Made by a program: the position numbers and the translations under genes
In this document: positions 1 through 25,006 of the stretch, one piece after another
Position numbering within the stretch: position 1 is the stretch's first letter
How the letters are laid out: each line of letters starts with the position of its first letter
Virus record (IMG/VR): IMGVR_UViG_3300033141_000928
Span: 1-30,089 of that record
Length of the DNA: 30,089 nucleotides
Source of the DNA: a virus
Reading direction: 5' to 3' (one strand)
Notes under the pieces: model-generated
Database searches by the model: none
Seen by the model: the letters and a program-made list of their open reading frames with translations, nothing else
What the model was told of the DNA's origin: nothing

Positions 1-104
1 TTTAGCTCAAATGATTTTATGCTTTTATAAGCTGTTATTGCTTTCTTGCCGCATGACTGGCATTTAGCTTCAAATGTGTGTTTTCTATTTATTCTGTTTG
101 GCAT
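1..104 (-). CDS. Small CxxC protein, cut by window edge
   Basis: An open frame begins with ATG at 104 and runs off the left edge without a stop. The visible 34 residues are basic and contain one CQSC pair, as in half of a small zinc ribbon; the second pair would lie outside the window. The Shine-Dalgarno is weak (GTGTGAG about 10 bases upstream). It follows the leftward gene at 135-332 in the same direction, so it would be the next gene of the leftward operon. The family is not recognised, and the call rests on an open frame and position. Confidence 0.4.
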   Translation of the reverse strand, partial: MPNRINRKHTFEAKCQSCGKKAITAYKSIKSFEL

Positions 105-134
105 TTTTATTTATATCTCACACGAACACCCTCT

Positions 135-332
135 TTAAGTTGTTGGGGTTTGATATTCATCAATCATTCGGCCACAAATAGAATCTAGCTTCTCTGACAT
201 ATACCACATATCATTGTTATCTCTGCGGCTAACTACCCGACATCGGGCAACATTCCTACCTTGAAGGATTTTGATAGCAATTCTAATCCACATAACTTCC
301 CAATATTTTTTGAGATTCATTCGTATATCCAT
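135..332 (-). CDS. Small basic hypothetical protein
   Basis: This encodes 65 residues with no recognised family. I place the start at the ATG at 332 because AAAAGG lies 7 bases before it; a GTG two codons upstream is also in frame but sits on the Shine-Dalgarno. The N-terminal half is hydrophobic and basic (an amphipathic WIRIAIKIL stretch), and the C-terminal half is charged. There is no clear membrane segment or catalytic motif. It follows the 27-residue ORF at 382-465 at the downstream end of the cassette-like region, but no convincing attC core was found between them. Confidence 0.5.
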   Translation of the reverse strand: MDIRMNLKKYWEVMWIRIAIKILQGRNVARCRVVSRRDNNDMWYMSEKLDSICGRMIDEYQTPTT

Positions 333-381
333 ACCCACACCTTTTATTTGTTAATAAGCATTAAGAAGCTTCTAGCCTCCG

Positions 382-465
382 CTAAATTATCAAATTATCC
401 AGATTAATAAACATAATTAACGAGAATATTAACCCCGCTATTGTTCCTAATACTATGCTTTTCAC
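382..465 (-). CDS. 27-residue single-span membrane microprotein
   Basis: A GTG start at 465 is preceded by GGAG at 8 bases. The peptide is almost entirely one hydrophobic segment (roughly residues 4-20) with a short polar tail, ending in TAG. The Shine-Dalgarno begins directly after the attC-like core GTTATAG (minus strand, 484-478), which is the normal place for the ORF of an integron cassette. No family is recognised. The coupling of core site, ribosome site and ORF is visible in the sequence; that it is translated is inference. Confidence 0.45.
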   Translation of the reverse strand: MKSIVLGTIAGLIFSLIMFINLDNLII

Positions 466-477
466 TTCTTGCGCTCC

Positions 478-531
478 CTATAACACGCTATTTAAAGGGG
501 ACACTATGCGCCCCTTAAATAAGCGTTATAC
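478..531 (-). repeat. attC-like site (GTATAAC ... GTTATAG)
   Basis: This 54-base near-palindrome has outer boxes TATAAC/GTTATA, then CGCT and TTTAA-GGGG arms facing CCCC-TTAAA and AGCG. Small mismatches and an extra base in one arm are typical of folded attC DNA. It directly precedes the microprotein ORF at 382-465 on the minus strand. Confidence 0.6.
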
Positions 532-569
532 GCCCGTAGGCGCTGTTAGTTATTGGTTATAGCTTTGCT

Positions 570-607
570 ATATAACAAAGCACTCAATTGGACCAACTAC
601 GTTAGCC
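570..607 (-). repeat. Short, probably deleted attC-like site (GGCTAAC ... GTTATAT)
   Basis: The core 7-mers are present at 601-607 and 570-576. The right arm (TTGAGTGCTTTGTTATA on the minus strand) looks normal for attC, but the left arm is only a few bases, as if internally deleted. Together with the site at 478-531 it bounds a segment of about 40 bases with no ORF. Confidence 0.4.
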
Positions 608-613
608 GCTAAT

Positions 614-811
614 TCAATAGCTGATAAACCACCTAAGAGATTCCTCTGCCAGCTCATCAGTGTATTCTTCTGCTGAGTAATTAGCCTTTGACTCTGCCTC
701 TTCCTTCCACATTTCGTATGCTTCCTCTAAAGCTTTATCGTAGTTCTCTGCCTCTATCTCTTGATGTGCCTCACCGTAGCCAGCGTCCCAAGTAATAATA
801 AATTTTCGCAT
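614..811 (-). CDS. Small acidic phage-type protein (WDAGYG family)
   Basis: This encodes 65 residues, opening with a beta-strand-like FIITWDAGYG segment followed by an acidic, helix-rich tail. From memory, short proteins with this opening are common in phages of Gram-negative hosts; their function is unknown. The start is the ATG at 811, with GGAG 9 bases upstream. An upstream in-frame ATG at 826 would lie on the ribosome site. The leader begins at the core-like GTTATAA (837-831 on the minus strand), so it sits like a cassette ORF, although its closing core does not match the opening one. Confidence 0.65.
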   Translation of the reverse strand: MRKFIITWDAGYGEAHQEIEAENYDKALEEAYEMWKEEAESKANYSAEEYTDELAEESLRWFISY

Positions 812-830
812 CTCTATATTCTCCATCGGT

Positions 831-885
831 TTATAACAAATTAAAGCAGCCGACCCTTCGGGCTGCTGTTTAAGGGGTTCTCAGA
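831..885 (-). repeat. Degraded attC-like hairpin
   Basis: GCAGCC and GGCTGC arms are flanked by TTAAA/TTTAA blocks, with GTTATAA on one side and a degenerate GAGAAC on the other. Its right arm CTGCTTTAATTTGTTAT is identical over 17 bases to the site at 3174-3228. It could also act as a transcription terminator, since stem, loop and TTTAATTT follow in order on the minus strand. Confidence 0.5.
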
Positions 886-1212
886 AGATCGAAGGCGCTC
901 GACCTCCTTGCGAAGTCGCTCGTTTTCTTGCTCAAGGTCAGGGAAAGCATTGAACCGTCTCACTAGCTCGATGGATACTAGCTTACAGGTATCGCTGTAT
1001 TCCTTGCTGGGAAACTGCATCCACGGTTGAATGAAGTAGAACTCAGGCTTGCTTTCAAACTCCACAAAATCGTGAGATTTTCCGAAGTCGTAAAAGATGT
1101 CGAAGCCCCGTCCGTTATTTGTCCCCTGAACGGAGAGACGCAGCTTCCCAAACTGAGAACAAGACGGTGCTGACCGATCCGCTCCCGCTGGTGTTTCCGT
1201 TGTGGTTTTCAT
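841..1212 (-). CDS. Hypothetical protein with C-terminal coiled coil
   Basis: This encodes 123 residues, family not recognised. Residues 1-20 are polar and Ser/Thr/Ala-rich. The middle is rich in aromatic residues (FDIFYDF, EFYFIQPWMQF), probably a small globular domain. Residues 93-109 (LEQENERLRKEVERLR) form a clear heptad coiled coil. The start at 1212 has AAGGAAAA about 8 bases upstream. The last 14 residues are encoded by the attC-like hairpin at 831-885, so the natural C-terminus may once have been different. It is in the minus-strand cassette series, but no intact core precedes its start. Confidence 0.6.
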   Translation of the reverse strand: MKTTTETPAGADRSAPSCSQFGKLRLSVQGTNNGRGFDIFYDFGKSHDFVEFESKPEFYFIQPWMQFPSKEYSDTCKLVSIELVRRFNAFPDLEQENERLRKEVERLRSSENPLNSSPKGRLL

Positions 1213-1271
1213 AGCTATTTTCCTTTCTGTGTTTTCGGTGGTTCGCCGCCATCGGACGGCAGACCTTCAGC

Positions 1272-1278
1272 GTTAGGT
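1272..1278 (-). repeat. Consensus attC core (GTTAGGT / ACCTAAC)
   Basis: GTTAGGT here matches the consensus GTTRRRY exactly and is the perfect complement of ACCTAAC at 1634-1640, the other end of the cassette that carries the 1285-1602 ORF. The partner arm that should follow on the minus strand is not evident; only a GC-rich hairpin (GCCGCC/GGACGGC, near 1247-1262) is seen. Confidence 0.6.
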
Positions 1279-1284
1279 GAATAA

Positions 1285-1602
1285 ATGAGCGATGAACTAG
1301 ATAAGGCTTTTGACTCCAATATGAATGGAGATAAAAACAATCTTCGCGTAACTCTCATTAACCCTCCTATTGATAACCCTTGGGCAACAAGGCAAGACTA
1401 CCTTGATGACCAAAAGCGGATAACGACTGCGCAACGATGGACTATCGCCGCAGCTATGGCCGCAATAATTAGTTCTATATGCAGTGTGGCATTAACATAT
1501 TCGGAATTACGCCAAGAACCGTTAAAGACAGAGCAAGCGCGAGAAGCCCCATTGCAACCGTTAAAAAACGAAAACACCACTCAGAAAGCTGGTCAAAAAT
1601 AA
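1285..1602 (+). CDS. Single-pass membrane protein, reversed cassette ORF
   Basis: This encodes 105 residues: a polar N-terminal half, one transmembrane helix at about residues 52-72 (WTIAAAMAAIISSICSVAL), and a short Pro/Gln-rich charged tail. No family is recognised. It starts 6 bases after the core GTTAGGT and is the only ORF of the array on the plus strand, opposite to the other cassettes. There is no strong Shine-Dalgarno (GTTAGGTGAATAA precedes the ATG), and AGGTGA in the core itself may serve. Cassette ends ACCTAAC/GTTAGGT match exactly. Confidence 0.6.
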   Translation: MSDELDKAFDSNMNGDKNNLRVTLINPPIDNPWATRQDYLDDQKRITTAQRWTIAAAMAAIISSICSVALTYSELRQEPLKTEQAREAPLQPLKNENTTQKAGQK

Positions 1603-1633
1603 TGCCAAATTTCTCACTTAATTTCATAAAATC

Positions 1634-1690
1634 ACCTAACAAGTTAATCAAAATGGACGGCTCACGCCGCCAGTTATTAAGGCGTTATGC
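1634..1690 (-). repeat. attC site (GCATAAC ... GTTAGGT), best preserved
   Basis: This 57-base site is bounded by ACCTAAC (1634-1640) and GTTATGC (1684-1690), with TTAAT blocks in both arms, a GG-ACGGC/GCCGCC inner stem and unpaired bases in one arm. Both cores match cores of the neighbouring cassettes exactly (1272-1278 and 1890-1896). Confidence 0.75.
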
Positions 1691-1873
1691 CTCTACTTTT
1701 CTAAAAAGATGGGGATAATCCCTAACATCATCCTTATAGCTGTTGTCGCTTATCTCCACCATGTAAAGCATTCCTGTGTTTTCGTACACAGTTACTATCT
1801 CTCCCACCTCAAACATTGATGCAGGGAAATTAGCAATCACTTCATAGGTTACTGTTTTTGGCTTGTCATTCAT
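1685..1873 (-). CDS. Small cassette-encoded protein, possible SH3-like fold
   Basis: This encodes 62 residues, from ATG 1873 with GGAGG 8 bases upstream. The pattern of short beta strands with GEIVTVYENTGMLYMVE and a terminal FRKVEA looks like a small barrel domain of the SH3/KOW type (inference from pattern only). The stop codon TAA is the TTA of core GTTATGC read on the minus strand, so the ORF ends exactly at the attC boundary. The opening core GTTATGC lies 17 bases before the ATG and is followed by CTTGGAGGGCA, nearly the same leader as the gene at 2961-3155. Confidence 0.65.
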   Translation of the reverse strand: MNDKPKTVTYEVIANFPASMFEVGEIVTVYENTGMLYMVEISDNSYKDDVRDYPHLFRKVEA

Positions 1874-1889
1874 TAATCTGCCCTCCAAG

Positions 1890-1965
1890 GCATAACAAAA
1901 CAATGTTGGTTCGCCCTGCGGGCTGGACAGTCGCTGCGCTCCTGCCCCAAATTTAAGGGTTAGCA
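1890..1965 (-). repeat. attC site (TGCTAAC ... GTTATGC)
   Basis: This 76-base site has cores at 1890-1896 and 1959-1965. The inner part contains GC-rich sub-hairpins (CGCCCTGCGGGC, GTCGCTGCGC), as in longer attC sites. Both cores match the far ends of their cassettes exactly. Confidence 0.7.
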
Positions 1966-2322
1966 GGCAAATCCAGCCCACTGAGTTAACTTATCTTTTA
2001 ATATAGTTAATATCTCTTTTGCGTCATCACCTTTTAAGCTTATATACTCTGGCGTCCAAAACCCATTATGTGCAGCGGTAAATACTTTTACAAAATCATT
2101 ACTGTAAGCAAATTCAAAAGCCATTGTTCTACCCATACAGTAACTAGGGTTTTCATCATAAACTGTAGCGGTAAAGCCACAGTAATGGTTTTCGCCATCG
2201 AACTCAAAATGTTCGCTATCTCGCTCCTTCATAAACTCAACAAATGCGCTTATGAACTGCTTTTCGTTTTGTGGTTTCTCACCATCGATCTTGTGCCATT
2301 TTTCAACGTATTCTTTTAGCAT
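1960..2322 (-). CDS. Cassette-encoded hypothetical protein
   Basis: This encodes 120 residues, start 2322 with AAGGAC upstream. The N-terminus is helical and charged; the centre is rich in aromatic residues and His (EHFEFDGENHYCGF); the end is helical. It has no membrane segment or known motif, and no family is recognised. The stop TAA is supplied by core GTTAGCA (1959-1965 read on the minus strand). The opening core is GTTAGCA at 2355-2349, complementary to its closing core, so it is a complete cassette with one ORF. Confidence 0.65.
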   Translation of the reverse strand: MLKEYVEKWHKIDGEKPQNEKQFISAFVEFMKERDSEHFEFDGENHYCGFTATVYDENPSYCMGRTMAFEFAYSNDFVKVFTAAHNGFWTPEYISLKGDDAKEILTILKDKLTQWAGFAC

Positions 2323-2348
2323 TATCTGTTGTCCTTGTGTTATCGCTC

Positions 2349-2438
2349 TGCTAACAACTCGCTCAAATCGGAGCGCTAACAGTTGGTTGTTTATTAATTT
2401 AAGGGCGGTGTTAGCGCCCGTTTAGCTTTAGGTTATAT
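2349..2438 (-). repeat. Long attC site (ATATAAC ... GTTAGCA)
   Basis: This 90-base site has cores at 2349-2355 and 2432-2438. The stem includes GCT-AAA-CGG blocks and a perfect 9-base inner stem, GCGCTAACA against TGTTAGCGC. Length and form resemble VCR-type attC sites. Both cores match their cassette partners exactly. Confidence 0.7.
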
Positions 2439-2726
2439 TGCCTTTCTATTTTCGTACTCTTTTAATCTACCGCTTTCTCTTGAAGCAACTTCAATCGAGC
2501 CTTTTAATATTTCACGGTTAGCTTTTCCGATCACGTTATCACCTAAATCAAGACCTTTAAATTTGTCGGTTTTTGCGCTTTCTTCTGTAATTATTTCTTG
2601 TCGTTGAAAGTCTCTTGTTTCAATAACACTATCAAAACATTCTTCGCAAGCTACCGCGCCTCGGTACTCATAAGCCTCATGTCCGTCAATTTCTTTATGA
2701 CATTTACTGCAAGTGTATTCTTTCAT
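2433..2726 (-). CDS. Zinc-ribbon (two CxxC) protein, LIM-like start
   Basis: This encodes 97 residues from ATG 2726, with AAAGGA 9 bases upstream. CSKC (residues 6-9) and CEEC (residues 27-30) probably bind one zinc. The rest is charged, with the stretch KFKGLDLGDNVIGKANREIL followed by a helical tail. I recall similar small proteins in phages and bacteria, with no assigned function. The stop TAA lies within core GTTATAT (2432-2438). The matching core is at 2756-2762, so the cassette ends agree. The start codon overlaps the stop of the preceding ORF (ATGA). Confidence 0.7.
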   Translation of the reverse strand: MKEYTCSKCHKEIDGHEAYEYRGAVACEECFDSVIETRDFQRQEIITEESAKTDKFKGLDLGDNVIGKANREILKGSIEVASRESGRLKEYENRKAI

Positions 2727-2977
2727 TTTCTTGGATCCTTTCTTTGTAGTGGCAAATATAACAACCAATTCAACATGACTGCTACAGTTCGCTGCGCTGG
2801 ATTCGTCATATCATTCTTCGTTTCACTCATTTTATTCGCCTCAATGCTGGCCATTGTTGCGGCATGGTTTTTAACCTCGTAAATAGCCCAACTGCAATTT
2901 GTAGTTGTTGCAGTTGAGCAGCACTCCCTAAGTTGTTGTAATTCATCATCATTCATTGCTTCAATTGTAGTTAGCAT
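2723..2977 (-). CDS. Small Cys/Thr-rich protein with tail read from half an attC site
   Basis: This ORF of 84 codons opens inside the last codons of the gene at 2961-3155; ATG 2956 (MNDDELQQL) is an alternative start, and neither has a strong Shine-Dalgarno. Residues 1-55 look like a genuine small protein (helical DDELQQLREC, then STATTTNCSW and a charged helix). The end, from about residue 59, is translated from the right arm of an attC site whose left arm is missing, so it is probably a fusion made by deletion. The family is not identified with certainty. Confidence 0.5.
   Translation of the reverse strand: MLTTIEAMNDDELQQLRECCSTATTTNCSWAIYEVKNHAATMASIEANKMSETKNDMTNPAQRTVAVMLNWLLYLPLQRKDPRK
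2756..2800 (-). repeat. Half attC site (only GTTATAT arm)
   Basis: ATATAAC at 2756-2762 followed by AACCAATTCAACATGACTGC and CGCTGCGC has the form of one attC arm, but no complementary arm or second core is found to the right. The core matches GTTATAT at 2432-2438 exactly, so this is the opening end of the zinc-ribbon cassette with its partner arm deleted. Confidence 0.55.
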
Positions 2978-3155
2978 CTTTAAGTGTAAGTCGTTTTTCT
3001 AGCTGTTCTGTTCTCTGTTTGTCCTGTCCTTGCCATCCAGCAACACAGCACGCTATAAGCTCATCTCTAGTCATTTCTTCAATAGGTACTCCAAAAAACT
3101 GCGAGCCTTTTGCTCTCCCTAAATTACTTTCTACAAAACTTCTTGGTATAGCCAT
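2961..3155 (-). CDS. Small hypothetical protein, first complete cassette ORF
   Basis: This encodes 64 residues from ATG 3155. GGAGGG lies 9-10 bases upstream in the leader GTTATGCCTTCGGAGGGCA, nearly identical to the leader of the gene at 1685-1873. The protein is polar, with a motif-poor middle (GVPIEEMTRDELIACCVAGW) and a charged helical C-terminus (KQRTEQLEKRLTLKDA). No family is recognised. Its cassette opens with GTTATGC (3180-3174), but the expected GCATAAC closing core is missing, consistent with the deletion at 2756-2800. Confidence 0.6.
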   Translation of the reverse strand: MAIPRSFVESNLGRAKGSQFFGVPIEEMTRDELIACCVAGWQGQDKQRTEQLEKRLTLKDANYN

Positions 3156-3173
3156 AATCTTTGCCCTCCGAAG

Positions 3174-3228
3174 GCATAACAAATTAAAGCAGTTGGATTG
3201 TTCCAACCGCTGCTTAAAGTGGTTACAC
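3174..3228 (-). repeat. attC site (GTGTAAC ... GTTATGC)
   Basis: This 55-base hairpin has outer TAAC/GTTA boxes, an unpaired 3-base spacer, a TTAAAGCAG/CTGCTTAA stem, two extrahelical bases, a TTGGA/TCCAA stem and a 4-base loop. That is the R-box, spacer, L-box, extrahelical-base layout known for folded attC DNA. It marks the upstream end of the array. Confidence 0.65.
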
Positions 3229-3334: not shown

Positions 3335-3350
3335 CACCTTTACCTGTTAT
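3335..3350 (-). repeat. 16-base leader repeat, copy 1
   Basis: ATAACAGGTAAAGGTG on the minus strand is identical to 4068-4083. Each copy carries the Shine-Dalgarno (AAAGGTG) of the next gene and a stop of the previous one, so it may be a duplicated junction that couples translation. Confidence 0.6.
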
Positions 3351-4063
3351 GGGGTAGGGGTTAACTCTTCTTTAGCGCATCTTTTAATGTCTTCCATAGC
3401 TTGGTCATCGGTTTCAAAAAACCTTGGGGGTGAAACTTTTATTTCAGATGATGCGTTATAAATTTGCAAGGCAGCAAATCCGGTAGAAGTTTTACTTTCT
3501 AATTCCTTACCTTCTCTCCCTGCTAACTTAACCACCCATCCCGCTCGGCAATGCGTGGTTTCGCATGTATGCCATGTAGACATATCCAAGGCGTTATCTT
3601 GTGATACAACCTCCAGCACTCGGTTATGAATATTTTCTATTTTTGGAATTTTCATCATTCCTTCTTTTTTGCCTCCTGTTTGGTCAGAGCAGCGAGAGCA
3701 GCCAGAGCAGCGAGAGCAGCCAGAGCAGCGAGAGCAGCGAGAGCAGCGAGAGCAGCCATAGCAGTCAGAGCAGTCAGAGCAGCCAGAGCAGCCATAGCAG
3801 CCATAGCAGCCATAGCAGTCAGAGCAGCCAGAGCAGTCAGAGCAGTCAGAGCAGCGAGAGCAGTCAGAGCAGCCATAGCAGCCATAGCAGTCAGAGCAGC
3901 CAGAGCAGTCAGAGCAGTCAGAGCAGTTCCAGCAAGCTTTATTTGTTAAGTTATCCTTTTCAAAATTAGGATGTGCTTCTGCAAACTCCTTACTAACACC
4001 ATTTTCGTTTCTATCTTCTCTTTTTAAGAAGTCTTTATAGTTTTCATAAATTTTAGTTTTCAT
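3347..4063 (-). CDS. Cys-x-x tandem-repeat protein with C-terminal CETTHCRAGW domain
   Basis: This encodes 238 residues in three parts. Residues 1-42 are a charged helical head. Residues 43-126 are 28 uninterrupted Cys-x-x triplets, nearly all CSD, CSG, CSR or CYG. Residues 138-238 form a soluble domain with WHTCETTHCRAGWVV. From memory, this C-terminal domain recurs in phage and bacterial proteins, often behind such repeats, with no established function; the repeats would fit a stacked-coil or metal/disulphide-rich rod (inference). The start at 4063 has AAAGGTG 4 bases upstream. An internal ATG pair near 3658, after AAGGA, could yield the C-terminal domain alone. Confidence 0.75.
   Translation of the reverse strand: MKTKIYENYKDFLKREDRNENGVSKEFAEAHPNFEKDNLTNKACWNCSDCSDCSGCSDCYGCYGCSDCSRCSDCSDCSGCSDCYGCYGCYGCSGCSDCSDCYGCSRCSRCSRCSGCSRCSGCSRCSDQTGGKKEGMMKIPKIENIHNRVLEVVSQDNALDMSTWHTCETTHCRAGWVVKLAGREGKELESKTSTGFAALQIYNASSEIKVSPPRFFETDDQAMEDIKRCAKEELTPTP
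3682..3933 (-). repeat. 9-bp tandem repeat array encoding Cys-x-x
   Basis: About 28 head-to-tail 9-base units of form TGC-TCT-GAC (minus strand). Variation is nearly confined to the second base of codon 2 (Ser/Tyr) and the first two bases of codon 3 (Asp/Gly/Arg). A six-unit block (CSD CSD CSG CSD CYG CYG) occurs twice, suggesting growth by unequal exchange or slippage. All six frames are open through the array for this reason. Confidence 0.9.
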
Positions 4064-4083: not shown

Positions 4084-4177
4084 TTGCATCCTCTGCCCTT
4101 GCAGCCATCCCTATAGATACTACACATAGGGAGGCTATTATAAATATTGCTATTGGTATTAATAATAAGTACATCAT
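4073..4177 (-). CDS. 34-residue single-span membrane peptide
   Basis: ATG 4177 overlaps the stop of the SSB-like gene (TAATG), so translation is probably coupled. The peptide is a strong hydrophobic helix (about residues 3-23, LLLIPIAIFIIASLCVVSIG) with a short charged tail ending DANNR. No family is recognised. Small inner-membrane peptides in phage early operons are frequent; a role in exclusion or host takeover is speculation. Confidence 0.5.
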   Translation of the reverse strand: MMYLLLIPIAIFIIASLCVVSIGMAARAEDANNR

Positions 4178-4476
4178 TAGAAAGGCGGCTCTTCGAAGTC
4201 GTCTAAATTACCCTTGGCTTGTTGTGCGCCTTCTTGCGTCTGTGGAGCGTCTGACCAGAAAACCTTTACATTACCCAGAATAGGCGTATTCGTTTTGGCT
4301 TCCTTCTCTTCTTTAGTCTGTTTATGAGATACAAACCCGTTATTGTCGTACTGGTCTTTGTTATCAACATCTATAAAAGTAGTCATTGTTAGGTAATTAC
4401 CTTTCTTGCCTTGGTATAACCTAGCTTTTTCAATCTTTGTTACGTCAATACTTATCTCTACGCCATATTTACTCAT
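4177..4476 (-). CDS. Single-stranded DNA-binding protein-like
   Basis: This encodes 99 residues. A beta-rich body (VEISIDVTKIEKARLYQ, YLTMTTFIDV, GNVKVFWSD) is followed by a disordered Gln/Ala linker and an acidic tip ending DDFEEPPF. That tip matches the protein-binding C-terminus of SSB proteins (acidic run ending in Pro-Phe), and the short OB-like body fits small phage SSBs. It lies in the same leftward operon as the annealing protein at 4836-5615, the usual recombination partnership. The start at 4476 has AGGAAG upstream. It binds ssDNA in the cytoplasm during replication and recombination. Confidence 0.75.
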   Translation of the reverse strand: MSKYGVEISIDVTKIEKARLYQGKKGNYLTMTTFIDVDNKDQYDNNGFVSHKQTKEEKEAKTNTPILGNVKVFWSDAPQTQEGAQQAKGNLDDFEEPPF

Positions 4477-4835: not shown

Positions 4836-5615
4836 TTACTCCGATAATGTTTTTAAGAATTTAAGAGTTTCAGGATCTACATTCTTGCTTATTAATCTTT
4901 TCTCGTTATCAGACAGGCCTCTAATTACCTCAGATGCAGAAATATCCTGAGCTTGAGCTAGATTATCTAGCTCCTCGCAAACCTCTGAAAGCTTGCCTAA
5001 CCCCTTGTTAATAAGCTGATTACACTTTTCCTTGCTTTTCATCTTGTCACTTTTAAATGACTTAAATAAATCCTCGTAAGCCTTTTCGCTTAACGACTTA
5101 TGAAAGCAGTAGAACTTCAAAGGATTATCTTCTAAAAATATACTGTGGAATTGATCATGCTCAAACTCGTTATAAGCTGGGCCAGCAAATTCACTTTCCA
5201 TCCGTTTAACATACTTATTATCATCAAACTTACCTAAGAAAACATCAGCATTAAACCCCATACATGATAAACACTTCGTAAGTCCGTCAGTAGTCGCTTT
5301 CTTCATATGGTCTGTATCTTTTTTCTTCATATCTTTATCAATATAAAGGCCATTTTGGCCCCATTGTTCGATATATCCAGCATCTTTAATCCATACCCTA
5401 ACCAGAACAGCGACCTCTTTAGTTTCAAATATTTCAGTCTTCCTTACCTCCCATCCCCACCCCTGACCAGCAGGCCCGAATTGCTCAGTAGCATTCTTGA
5501 TTTGATGGTAAGGATCAATCGCTGTTATAGCTCTACCAAATGTTACTTTTTTAGTATGAGCTGGGTTAGTCTTTTCGACAGCATTCCATAAATCCATATT
5601 AGAAAGGTTCGACAT
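4836..5615 (-). CDS. Single-strand annealing protein, Sak3/Rad52-like
   Basis: This encodes 259 residues. The N-terminal half carries the pattern GPAGQGWGWEV, then charged strands, then KKATTDGLTKCLSCMGFNADVFLGKFDDNKYV, which I recognise from phage recombinases of the Sak3 (DUF1071) group of the Rad52-like superfamily. These proteins form rings that anneal complementary single strands. The C-terminal half (from about residue 140) is helical and variable, probably for partner contacts. The start at 5615 has GGAGG 8 bases upstream and overlaps the preceding gene by 17 bases. With the SSB-like gene it forms the recombination module; no exonuclease gene was seen beside it. Confidence 0.8.
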   Translation of the reverse strand: MSNLSNMDLWNAVEKTNPAHTKKVTFGRAITAIDPYHQIKNATEQFGPAGQGWGWEVRKTEIFETKEVAVLVRVWIKDAGYIEQWGQNGLYIDKDMKKKDTDHMKKATTDGLTKCLSCMGFNADVFLGKFDDNKYVKRMESEFAGPAYNEFEHDQFHSIFLEDNPLKFYCFHKSLSEKAYEDLFKSFKSDKMKSKEKCNQLINKGLGKLSEVCEELDNLAQAQDISASEVIRGLSDNEKRLISKNVDPETLKFLKTLSE

Positions 5616-24181: not shown

Positions 24182-25006
24182 TTATGATTCGTCAGTTTCT
24201 ATAGTAACGATGCCTTCAGGATCACGGGCAACCGCACCAGCTTTCAAGATTCCATTGGCAAGCCAAGAAGTCTTTTGGGCGATGTAGTTAACCTCAGTTT
24301 TAGGACCGATACCAACAGCGATACCTATACCTTTCATGTGATACCCCATTGTAGAACGGATATTAGCCGCAATAGGTAATCCGCCCTCATCTCGATCTTC
24401 TATAGTGTGAAACTTAAAACTAACAAAAGTATCAATCTCACCCTGAACCAAAGCCTTAACCACTGCGAAATCAGAACTAGTGGCCTCTGTTTCTCCAAGC
24501 ATAGAATCAAGGCCTTCAGCGCTAACCAAAATATGACGATCCTTACTAGGAACCCCAGCTTTATTAAGGTTTTTTGCTCCAGCTCGAAGTTTAGCGACTG
24601 TAAGATTAGTACCGCCAGCGGCAACAGTAGAGCCTGTACCGGCAACAGCAGCATCAATAATAAGCTGATCTTCACGACGACCGATAGCCATTGCGATGGC
24701 TTCAGCTAGCTCTGATTGCTCATCAAAGTTAACAGCAGCTTGATCAAAAATATCGGTATACTCTGCAGCATTCCAATTTTGTAGGGTCGCTGGAATTAAA
24801 CCGTTTGCAACATCCATAGGAGTTACATCGGCTTGAGAGGCTTTCTGATTAGCTAAGCCCTTACCCATTGAACGAAAATTATAAGTATCACCTACAACGC
24901 CTTGACGCTGTGTAACGGTACTACGTAGATTAGACATGCCTTGATAGGCTTGTTTTACTTCGCTGTCAAACTCAATGCTTGCAACGGATGATAATGTTTT
25001 AGACAT
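24182..25006 (-). CDS. Major capsid protein (HK97-fold type)
   Basis: This encodes 274 residues. The N-terminal arm (EFDSEVKQAYQGMSNLRSTV, then GDTYNFRSMGKG), a middle with DEQSELAEAIAMAIGRREDQLII and a beta-rich C-terminus (ANGILKAGAVARDPEGIVTIET) match podovirus capsid proteins. It lacks the hallmarks of a protease-cleaved delta domain; a separate scaffold gene is present. Start 25006 has GGAG upstream. It has its own promoter (25139-25166) and terminator, the signs of the most highly expressed gene. Confidence 0.85.
   Translation of the reverse strand: MSKTLSSVASIEFDSEVKQAYQGMSNLRSTVTQRQGVVGDTYNFRSMGKGLANQKASQADVTPMDVANGLIPATLQNWNAAEYTDIFDQAAVNFDEQSELAEAIAMAIGRREDQLIIDAAVAGTGSTVAAGGTNLTVAKLRAGAKNLNKAGVPSKDRHILVSAEGLDSMLGETEATSSDFAVVKALVQGEIDTFVSFKFHTIEDRDEGGLPIAANIRSTMGYHMKGIGIAVGIGPKTEVNYIAQKTSWLANGILKAGAVARDPEGIVTIETDES

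Follow-up and report, generated by a model that had tools for sequence, protein, structure and literature searches.

Hairpins and small genes at the left end of a phage genome

The viral record IMGVR_UViG_3300033141_000928 of IMG/VR, complete at 30,089 bases and analyzed here over its full length (the window), carries at its left end two minus-strand genes of phage type (135-338 and 3347-4063) with 2.75 kb between them. In this interval hairpins alternate with small open reading frames (ORFs). A first-pass annotation of the sequence had taken the segment from 478 to 3228 for an integron-type cassette array embedded in a phage genome, with hairpins bounded by GTTRRRY/RYYYAAC-like cores between seven or more small genes. 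The present analysis bears this out. Eight attC-like sites, all on the plus strand, separate eight small ORFs; the sites score as attC, phage genes lie on both sides, and positions 478 and 3228 are the outer edges of the first and last sites. On the plus strand the sites, designated A to H, read 5'-(R/N)YYYAAC...GTTRRRY-like:

478-531, plus strand: attC site A; covariance model 23.3 bits, E 0.0012; weight matrix score 36.4
570-607, plus strand: degenerate attC-like site A'; covariance model 12.2 bits, E 0.61, not significant alone
831-883, plus strand: attC site B; covariance model 28.0 bits, E 9e-5
1154-1278, plus strand: attC site C (125 nt); weight matrix score 27.0; closure on both sides (see below)
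1634-1690, plus strand: attC site D, the most canonical; covariance model 47.4 bits, E 1.8e-9
1890-1965, plus strand: attC site E; weight matrix score 23.8; covariance model 10.4 bits, not significant alone
2349-2438, plus strand: attC site F (R' at 2432); weight matrix match; closure on both sides
2756-2826, plus strand: attC site G (weak); R'' closes cassette g; R' box GTTTCAC atypical
3174-3228, plus strand: attC site H, right end of the array; covariance model 13.1 bits, E 0.36

The core boxes are fully canonical in D and near-canonical in A, E and F; B, C, G and H each deviate in one box, and the deviant boxes mostly still pair with their cassette partner. A scan combining a position weight matrix (PWM) with duplex scoring took as its training set 26 published attCs, which came from two phages, Vibrio anguillarum phage Va_90-11-286_p16 and Shewanella phage M16-3. 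Six of its nine top matches in the window fall in 478-2416, all on the plus strand; dinucleotide shuffles of the whole window give about 1.5 matches of score at least 20 per 30 kb. The attC identity also holds up with an Infernal covariance model made from 24 chromosomal attCs, which detects D, B and A at E below 0.01 (best 1.8e-9) and places further matches, again all on the plus strand, at H, E, F and the degenerate stretch 570-607, below significance. With at least two attC sites and no integrase nearby, the locus is a cluster of attC sites lacking an integrase (CALIN); the intI gene that defines a complete integron is absent from the window.

Each cassette of an integron array opens with bases (TTRRRY of the preceding R' box) that must pair with its own terminal R'' box, because the two together formed the attC of the free circle. 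This closure is found in five consecutive cassettes, c, d, e, f and g (between sites B-C, C-D, D-E, E-F and F-G), over 8, 9, 9, 8 and 8 nt, respectively. Only one of the 49 other box combinations reaches at least 7 nt: the R'' box of site H pairs with the start box of cassette e (9 nt) and not with that of cassette h. Closure persists where the boxes leave the consensus, as in the pair GTTCTCAG/CTGAGAAC of cassette c. Strict RYYYAAC/GTTRRRY pairing inside single sites yielded nothing convincing in the array, since the true partner box sits at the other end of the cassette. No other single line of evidence in the window weighs as much as closure, which is independent of any trained model.

One could envision that the likeness to attC is convergent and that the hairpins serve as ordinary terminators between genes, or as RNA elements, in a phage accessory region. 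They do sit between small phage genes and are transcribed, and several are weak by the covariance model. However, terminators would not predict complementarity between the boxes before and after each gene, present at 8-9 nt in all five cassettes and in one of 49 combinations elsewhere, nor would they predict the strand consistency, the bulge asymmetry and the G|TT breakpoints described below. We regard this explanation as very improbable. The cassettes, delimited from G|TT to G|TT, and their genes are as follows:

614-826, minus strand: cassette gene b (70 aa); ORF without significant Pfam or PHROG match
841-1212, minus strand: cassette gene c (123 aa); begins, with its leader, within attC C and ends within attC B
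878-1272, plus strand: cassette c; GTTCTCAG ... CTGAGAAC closure, 8 nt
1273-1684, plus strand: cassette d, the sole one with its gene in attC orientation; closure 9 nt
1285-1602, plus strand: cassette gene d (105 aa); ORF that appears to hold one hydrophobic helix
1685-1959, plus strand: cassette e; closure 9 nt
1685-1873, minus strand: cassette gene e (62 aa); its stop codon abuts the crossover
1960-2432, plus strand: cassette f; closure 8 nt
1960-2322, minus strand: cassette gene f (120 aa); the product shares 44% identity with a hypothetical protein of Vibrio phage 1.161.O
2433-2820, plus strand: cassette g; closure 8 nt
2433-2726, minus strand: cassette gene g (97 aa); the product has four N-terminal cysteines and shares 55% identity with a protein of Pseudoalteromonas phage vB_Pun_Y3
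2723-2977, minus strand: ORF h2 of a two-gene unit
2961-3155, minus strand: ORF h1, overlapping h2

Genes f and g have homologues in other marine phages. None of the cassette genes of the window scores above the curated cut-offs of Pfam. Exact peptide patterns of the cassette proteins gave no match in the viral contigs searched, and none was found in plasmids; the f and g proteins also lack a match in 369 gammaproteobacterial genomes, a weak negative.

Genes reversed relative to their attC sites

A cassette gene is expected to lie upstream of its attC and in the same orientation. In the window, seven of the eight ORFs are instead on the minus strand, along the phage operon and opposite to the attC direction; d alone runs with attC, and the most canonical site, D, comes next. 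To this we compared 80 chromosomal integron loci, fetched by intI, and two reference phages, taking cassettes with at least 7 nt of closure, assigning polarity by a matrix built from the references only and removing duplicates. In phage arrays 26 of 32 cassettes are reversed (6 run with attC) versus 8 of 112 in chromosomal and reference arrays (104 with attC), giving a Fisher p of 4e-16 in which related cassettes are counted and are not independent. Two cassettes of phage H101 scored as co-oriented look like false sites; they were kept, which works against the reversal. Co-orientation in chromosomes (93%) is a strong tendency and not an absolute rule.

The polarity of the sites themselves is well marked. 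The reference-only PWM backs the assigned polarity in 23 of 24 phage sites. The bulges are larger on the left than on the right in 15 of the 24, with 3 opposite (23 of 26 versus none in the references), and the extra-helical bases expected of an attC hairpin are present on the L'' side. The phage sites share the R''-L''-L'-R' architecture, the extra base on the L'' side, the closure and the single-ORF cassettes of sedentary chromosomal integrons, for which Shewanella, Vibrio, Pseudidiomarina, Rheinheimera and Marinomonas were compared. The latter, however, have intI and usually co-oriented genes with C before GTT, both of which the phage arrays lack. Among validated phage sites GTT is preceded by G in 33 of 45, versus 8 of 205 chromosomal ones, where C is usual. 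Many phage-type sites, unlike chromosomal ones, also have AAC after R''.

The TAA stop codons of e, f and g are flush with the cassette end because TAA is the reverse complement of the TTA that begins directly after the crossover in G|TT. Of 25 reversed genes in phage arrays, 18 have a stop codon that opens on the first T of G|TT; the distance between start codon and R'' box is mostly 21-40 nt. Gene c of the window and several genes in contigs of related phages (L249, L189 and L258, presented below) start within their own attC, which encodes a short hydrophilic N-terminal leader; such start codons and leaders were noted at 841-1212 of the window, L249:6738-8265 and L189:12310-12666.

Integrase-less attC clusters in phages are already known, since Qi et al. 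(2023) published 17 CALINs in phages (PMC9892861). These include clusters in the virulent phages Pseudoalteromonas PH101/H101, Tetrasphaera TJE1, Polaribacter P12002L and myophage MW202573, with sites experimentally active in three of the four; IntI1 recombined five of six tested phage attCs, preferring bottom strands, and acted in vivo on the attC bottom strands of H101 (PH101) (PMC9892861). The window resembles these clusters in having attC sites and small-gene cassettes without intI, and differs in belonging to another phage lineage, in the GG|TT / AACAAC type of most of its sites and in having relatives with reordered cassettes. We found that the attCs of H101 are on the plus strand while its GenBank genes are on the minus strand (L343:25919-27987), and that the genes of MW202573 also run against attC polarity (L346:2281-2703). 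The H101 cassettes are described, in the part of the paper at hand, only as "oriented in the same direction", and that part makes no mention of reversal in either phage (PMC9892861). No description of it was found in the literature searched, outside which lie most subscription journals, and the reversed gene-versus-attC polarity of the window phage and its relatives appears to be new. Both this reversal and the earlier publication of phage clusters had been missed in the first-pass annotation.

The phage genome and related arrays

Structural and replication genes of phage are contiguous with the array on both sides:

135-338, minus strand: left phage flank gene; phrog_23588, E 1.5e-22; 99% identical in contig L002, where it lies beside terminase
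3347-4063, minus strand: right phage flank gene; phrog_31265/15341, E 8e-26
4177-4476, minus strand: early phage gene, SSB-like as judged from sequence; phrog_24909 (unannotated); used as query for related arrays

Head, tail, endolysin, helicase-loader and methyltransferase genes were recognized in the window by PHROG matches. Methylophilales phage MEP301 has the closest major capsid protein (51%), followed at greater distance by Vibrio phages of 31-35 kb. The protein of the window (24182-25006) also shares 44% identity with its counterpart in "Dunaliella viridis virus SI2", which is labeled as an algal virus and is apparently a podovirus-like phage. Close to the array, 4836-5615 encodes a recombination-associated protein that matches phage exonuclease families. 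The 3347-4063 protein adjoining the array contains a long run of a 9-bp repeat with CSxCSxCYxC-like motifs, more than 20 units; similar repeats occur in Flavobacterium phage FL-1 and in contig L087. No tRNAs were found in the window, an Rfam search returned nothing at gathering thresholds, and the phage collection yielded no useful close DNA relatives.

Two contigs from other metagenomes extend the record. L002 reproduces window positions 1-510 at 97%, stops inside site A and continues on its other side into terminase and portal genes; L082, with a terminase matching at 100%, links terminase and portal to the right end of the window at about 99-100%. By these overlaps the genome would measure approximately 33.8 kb, and no integrase is seen in the missing stretch. 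The first-pass annotation had seen no integrase either, and had proposed checking whether reads or related phages cover both array junctions. The former point stands: IntI has no match in the window, L002, L082 or the relatives (best E 0.2), and the window shows neither PF00589 nor any other sign of a tyrosine recombinase. It follows that the phage has no integron integrase and is probably virulent. As to the junctions, L002 confirms the left flank up to position 510, and on the right no second contig covers the junction.

That right junction, together with the end of L002 inside attC A at 510, is what could be said for an assembly chimera of host integron and phage. Such an artifact is hardly credible, as phage genes flank the array on both sides within one contig, an independent metagenome has the left flank continuous with terminase, and the arrays of related phage contigs show the same relative polarity.

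When the SSB-like protein and a homologue were used as queries on viral contigs, arrays emerged in L177/L179, L178/L180, L189, L193, L194, L249 and L251; L258 was added through an attC pattern and L103 through a terminase search. Comparable arrays thus exist in related or SSB-sharing phages. The window phage has structural proteins in common with L178 (50% over 794 aa). Circle closure is seen in these arrays too, and they are antiparallel to the SSB-like gene wherever checked, with one exception, in L189. Among TerL relatives other than L103, the contigs L083, L087 and L088 show no attC match or array before terminase, and L347 (vB_PspP-H6/1), with 72 bp in common with L180, has no array. Among the cassette products of the relatives are a Dam-type adenine methylase, a C5 cytosine methylase and a PAPS-reductase-like protein. 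In several phage arrays (L179:1426-1731, L193 and L258) a cassette for a small membrane protein has the normal orientation and precedes a canonical attC; its gene would be transcribed against the phage operon, and its attC pattern was found in viral contigs only. The one marginal match of this protein in the 369 gammaproteobacterial genomes, inside a 303-aa frame, was disregarded.

The relatives also show signs of movement. L258 and L180 have two cassettes in common and the same type of membrane-protein cassette, in the orders MTPSQQTK-MEATKYIP-TM and MEATKYIP-TM-MTPSQQTK, respectively. For the MTPSQQTK cassette, the stretch of identity is bounded by two successive sites, opening at G|TT in one and closing just past G|TT in the other. 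A backbone junction conserved between L179 and L180 (...TTTTGCAGTG|TT, read in attC direction) borders a different first cassette in each; no attI-type site was demonstrated. A 158-aa gene of L180 (14016-14492) looks like two cassettes fused at an attC R'' box, both halves occurring separately, in L258 and L179; such arrays may thus also create new genes.

These data bear on whether the array is a passive passenger, part of a host's chromosomal integron that illegitimate or homologous recombination brought in as one block in a single event. Phages of V. anguillarum did acquire integrons in this way (PMC9892861), and site D with cassette d looks fully canonical. The temperate phages p16 and M16-3 likewise hold integron parts in a phage or prophage genome; they, however, carry intI and resemble host-integron blocks, whereas the window lacks intI and its cassettes look phage-specific. 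Chromosomal genes are mostly in attC orientation (104 of 112), against seven of eight ORFs reversed here; the attC pattern of the related phages occurs in none of 84,980 genomes and in 4 viral contigs; the f and g proteins match phages and not plasmids or the 369 gammaproteobacterial genomes; and shuffled versions exist in related phages. Block capture is accordingly an unlikely origin.

A probable role of a host integrase and a possible phage pool of cassettes

On the strength of the sequence, we consider it likely that the locus is a CALIN adapted to phage life and worked in trans by the integron integrase of the host. Each attC would form a hairpin from single-stranded DNA, with recombination at G|TT, and in this way small circular cassettes could be lost, gained and reordered in phage DNA. 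Host IntI would be the most economical enzyme because no other was found and the breakpoints lie at G|TT. Movement by a different recombinase, or phage homologous recombination between hairpins, has in its favor that no intI was found, that a recombination-associated protein (4836-5615) is encoded near the array and that many phage-type sites are unlike chromosomal ones (G for C before GTT, AAC after R''). Yet IntI1 recombines the attCs of H101 (PMC9892861), whose genes are likewise reversed, the breakpoints are exactly at G|TT, as expected for IntI, and the window holds no other tyrosine recombinase that we could find. We therefore think it improbable that either of these moves the sites.

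The inverted polarity puts the attC body 5' of the gene, with the stop codon usually flush at the crossover; the genes therefore read with the phage operon, presumably expressed from phage promoters, though the array points the opposite way. The polarity may have been produced by selection for co-transcription, as the genes would need to read with the operon while the arrays are antiparallel to it, and perhaps by selection for placing the active attC strand on the lagging-strand template. With the array antiparallel to the operon, the attC bottom strand is then the operon coding strand and, if replication runs with transcription, would be the lagging-strand template as well. In an inverted chromosomal integron, lagging-template orientation raises cassette excision (PMC11023631). 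GC skew in the phage follows gene direction and cannot separate the direction of replication from that of transcription. The lagging-strand idea carries a prediction about attC strand activity during phage replication.

Several points weigh against the proposal of a phage-adapted array served by host IntI. With the covariance model, only three of the eight window sites reach significance by themselves. Sites G and H and cassettes b and h lack the closure signature; these two cassettes are irregular, and the array is therefore partly eroded. A second PWM was partly trained on these very sites, and polarity was re-scored with the reference-only matrix. Some cassettes of the relatives, including the recurrent small membrane protein, are in normal orientation, and the genes of TJE1 run with attC, in the normal direction. 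The relatives were mostly sampled near one gene, which biases both prevalence and location. Finally, recombination in this phage is deduced from sequence.

Integron cassettes are regarded as a bacterial gene-sharing currency. It is tempting to speculate, and we hold the chances to be even, that phages keep a cassette pool of their own, distinct from the bacterial one in its inverted polarity, its GG|TT-type attC and a 5' attC able to give the start codon, which would be exchanged between phages via hijacked host integron integrases and expressed by phage operons. A standard integron promoter would leave such cassettes mostly unexpressed. The direction of a gene relative to its attC is a simple sequence signature to seek in any virome. 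The DNA methyltransferases encoded by several cassettes of the relatives could protect phage DNA. If this view is correct, phages too use integron recombination to swap accessory genes.

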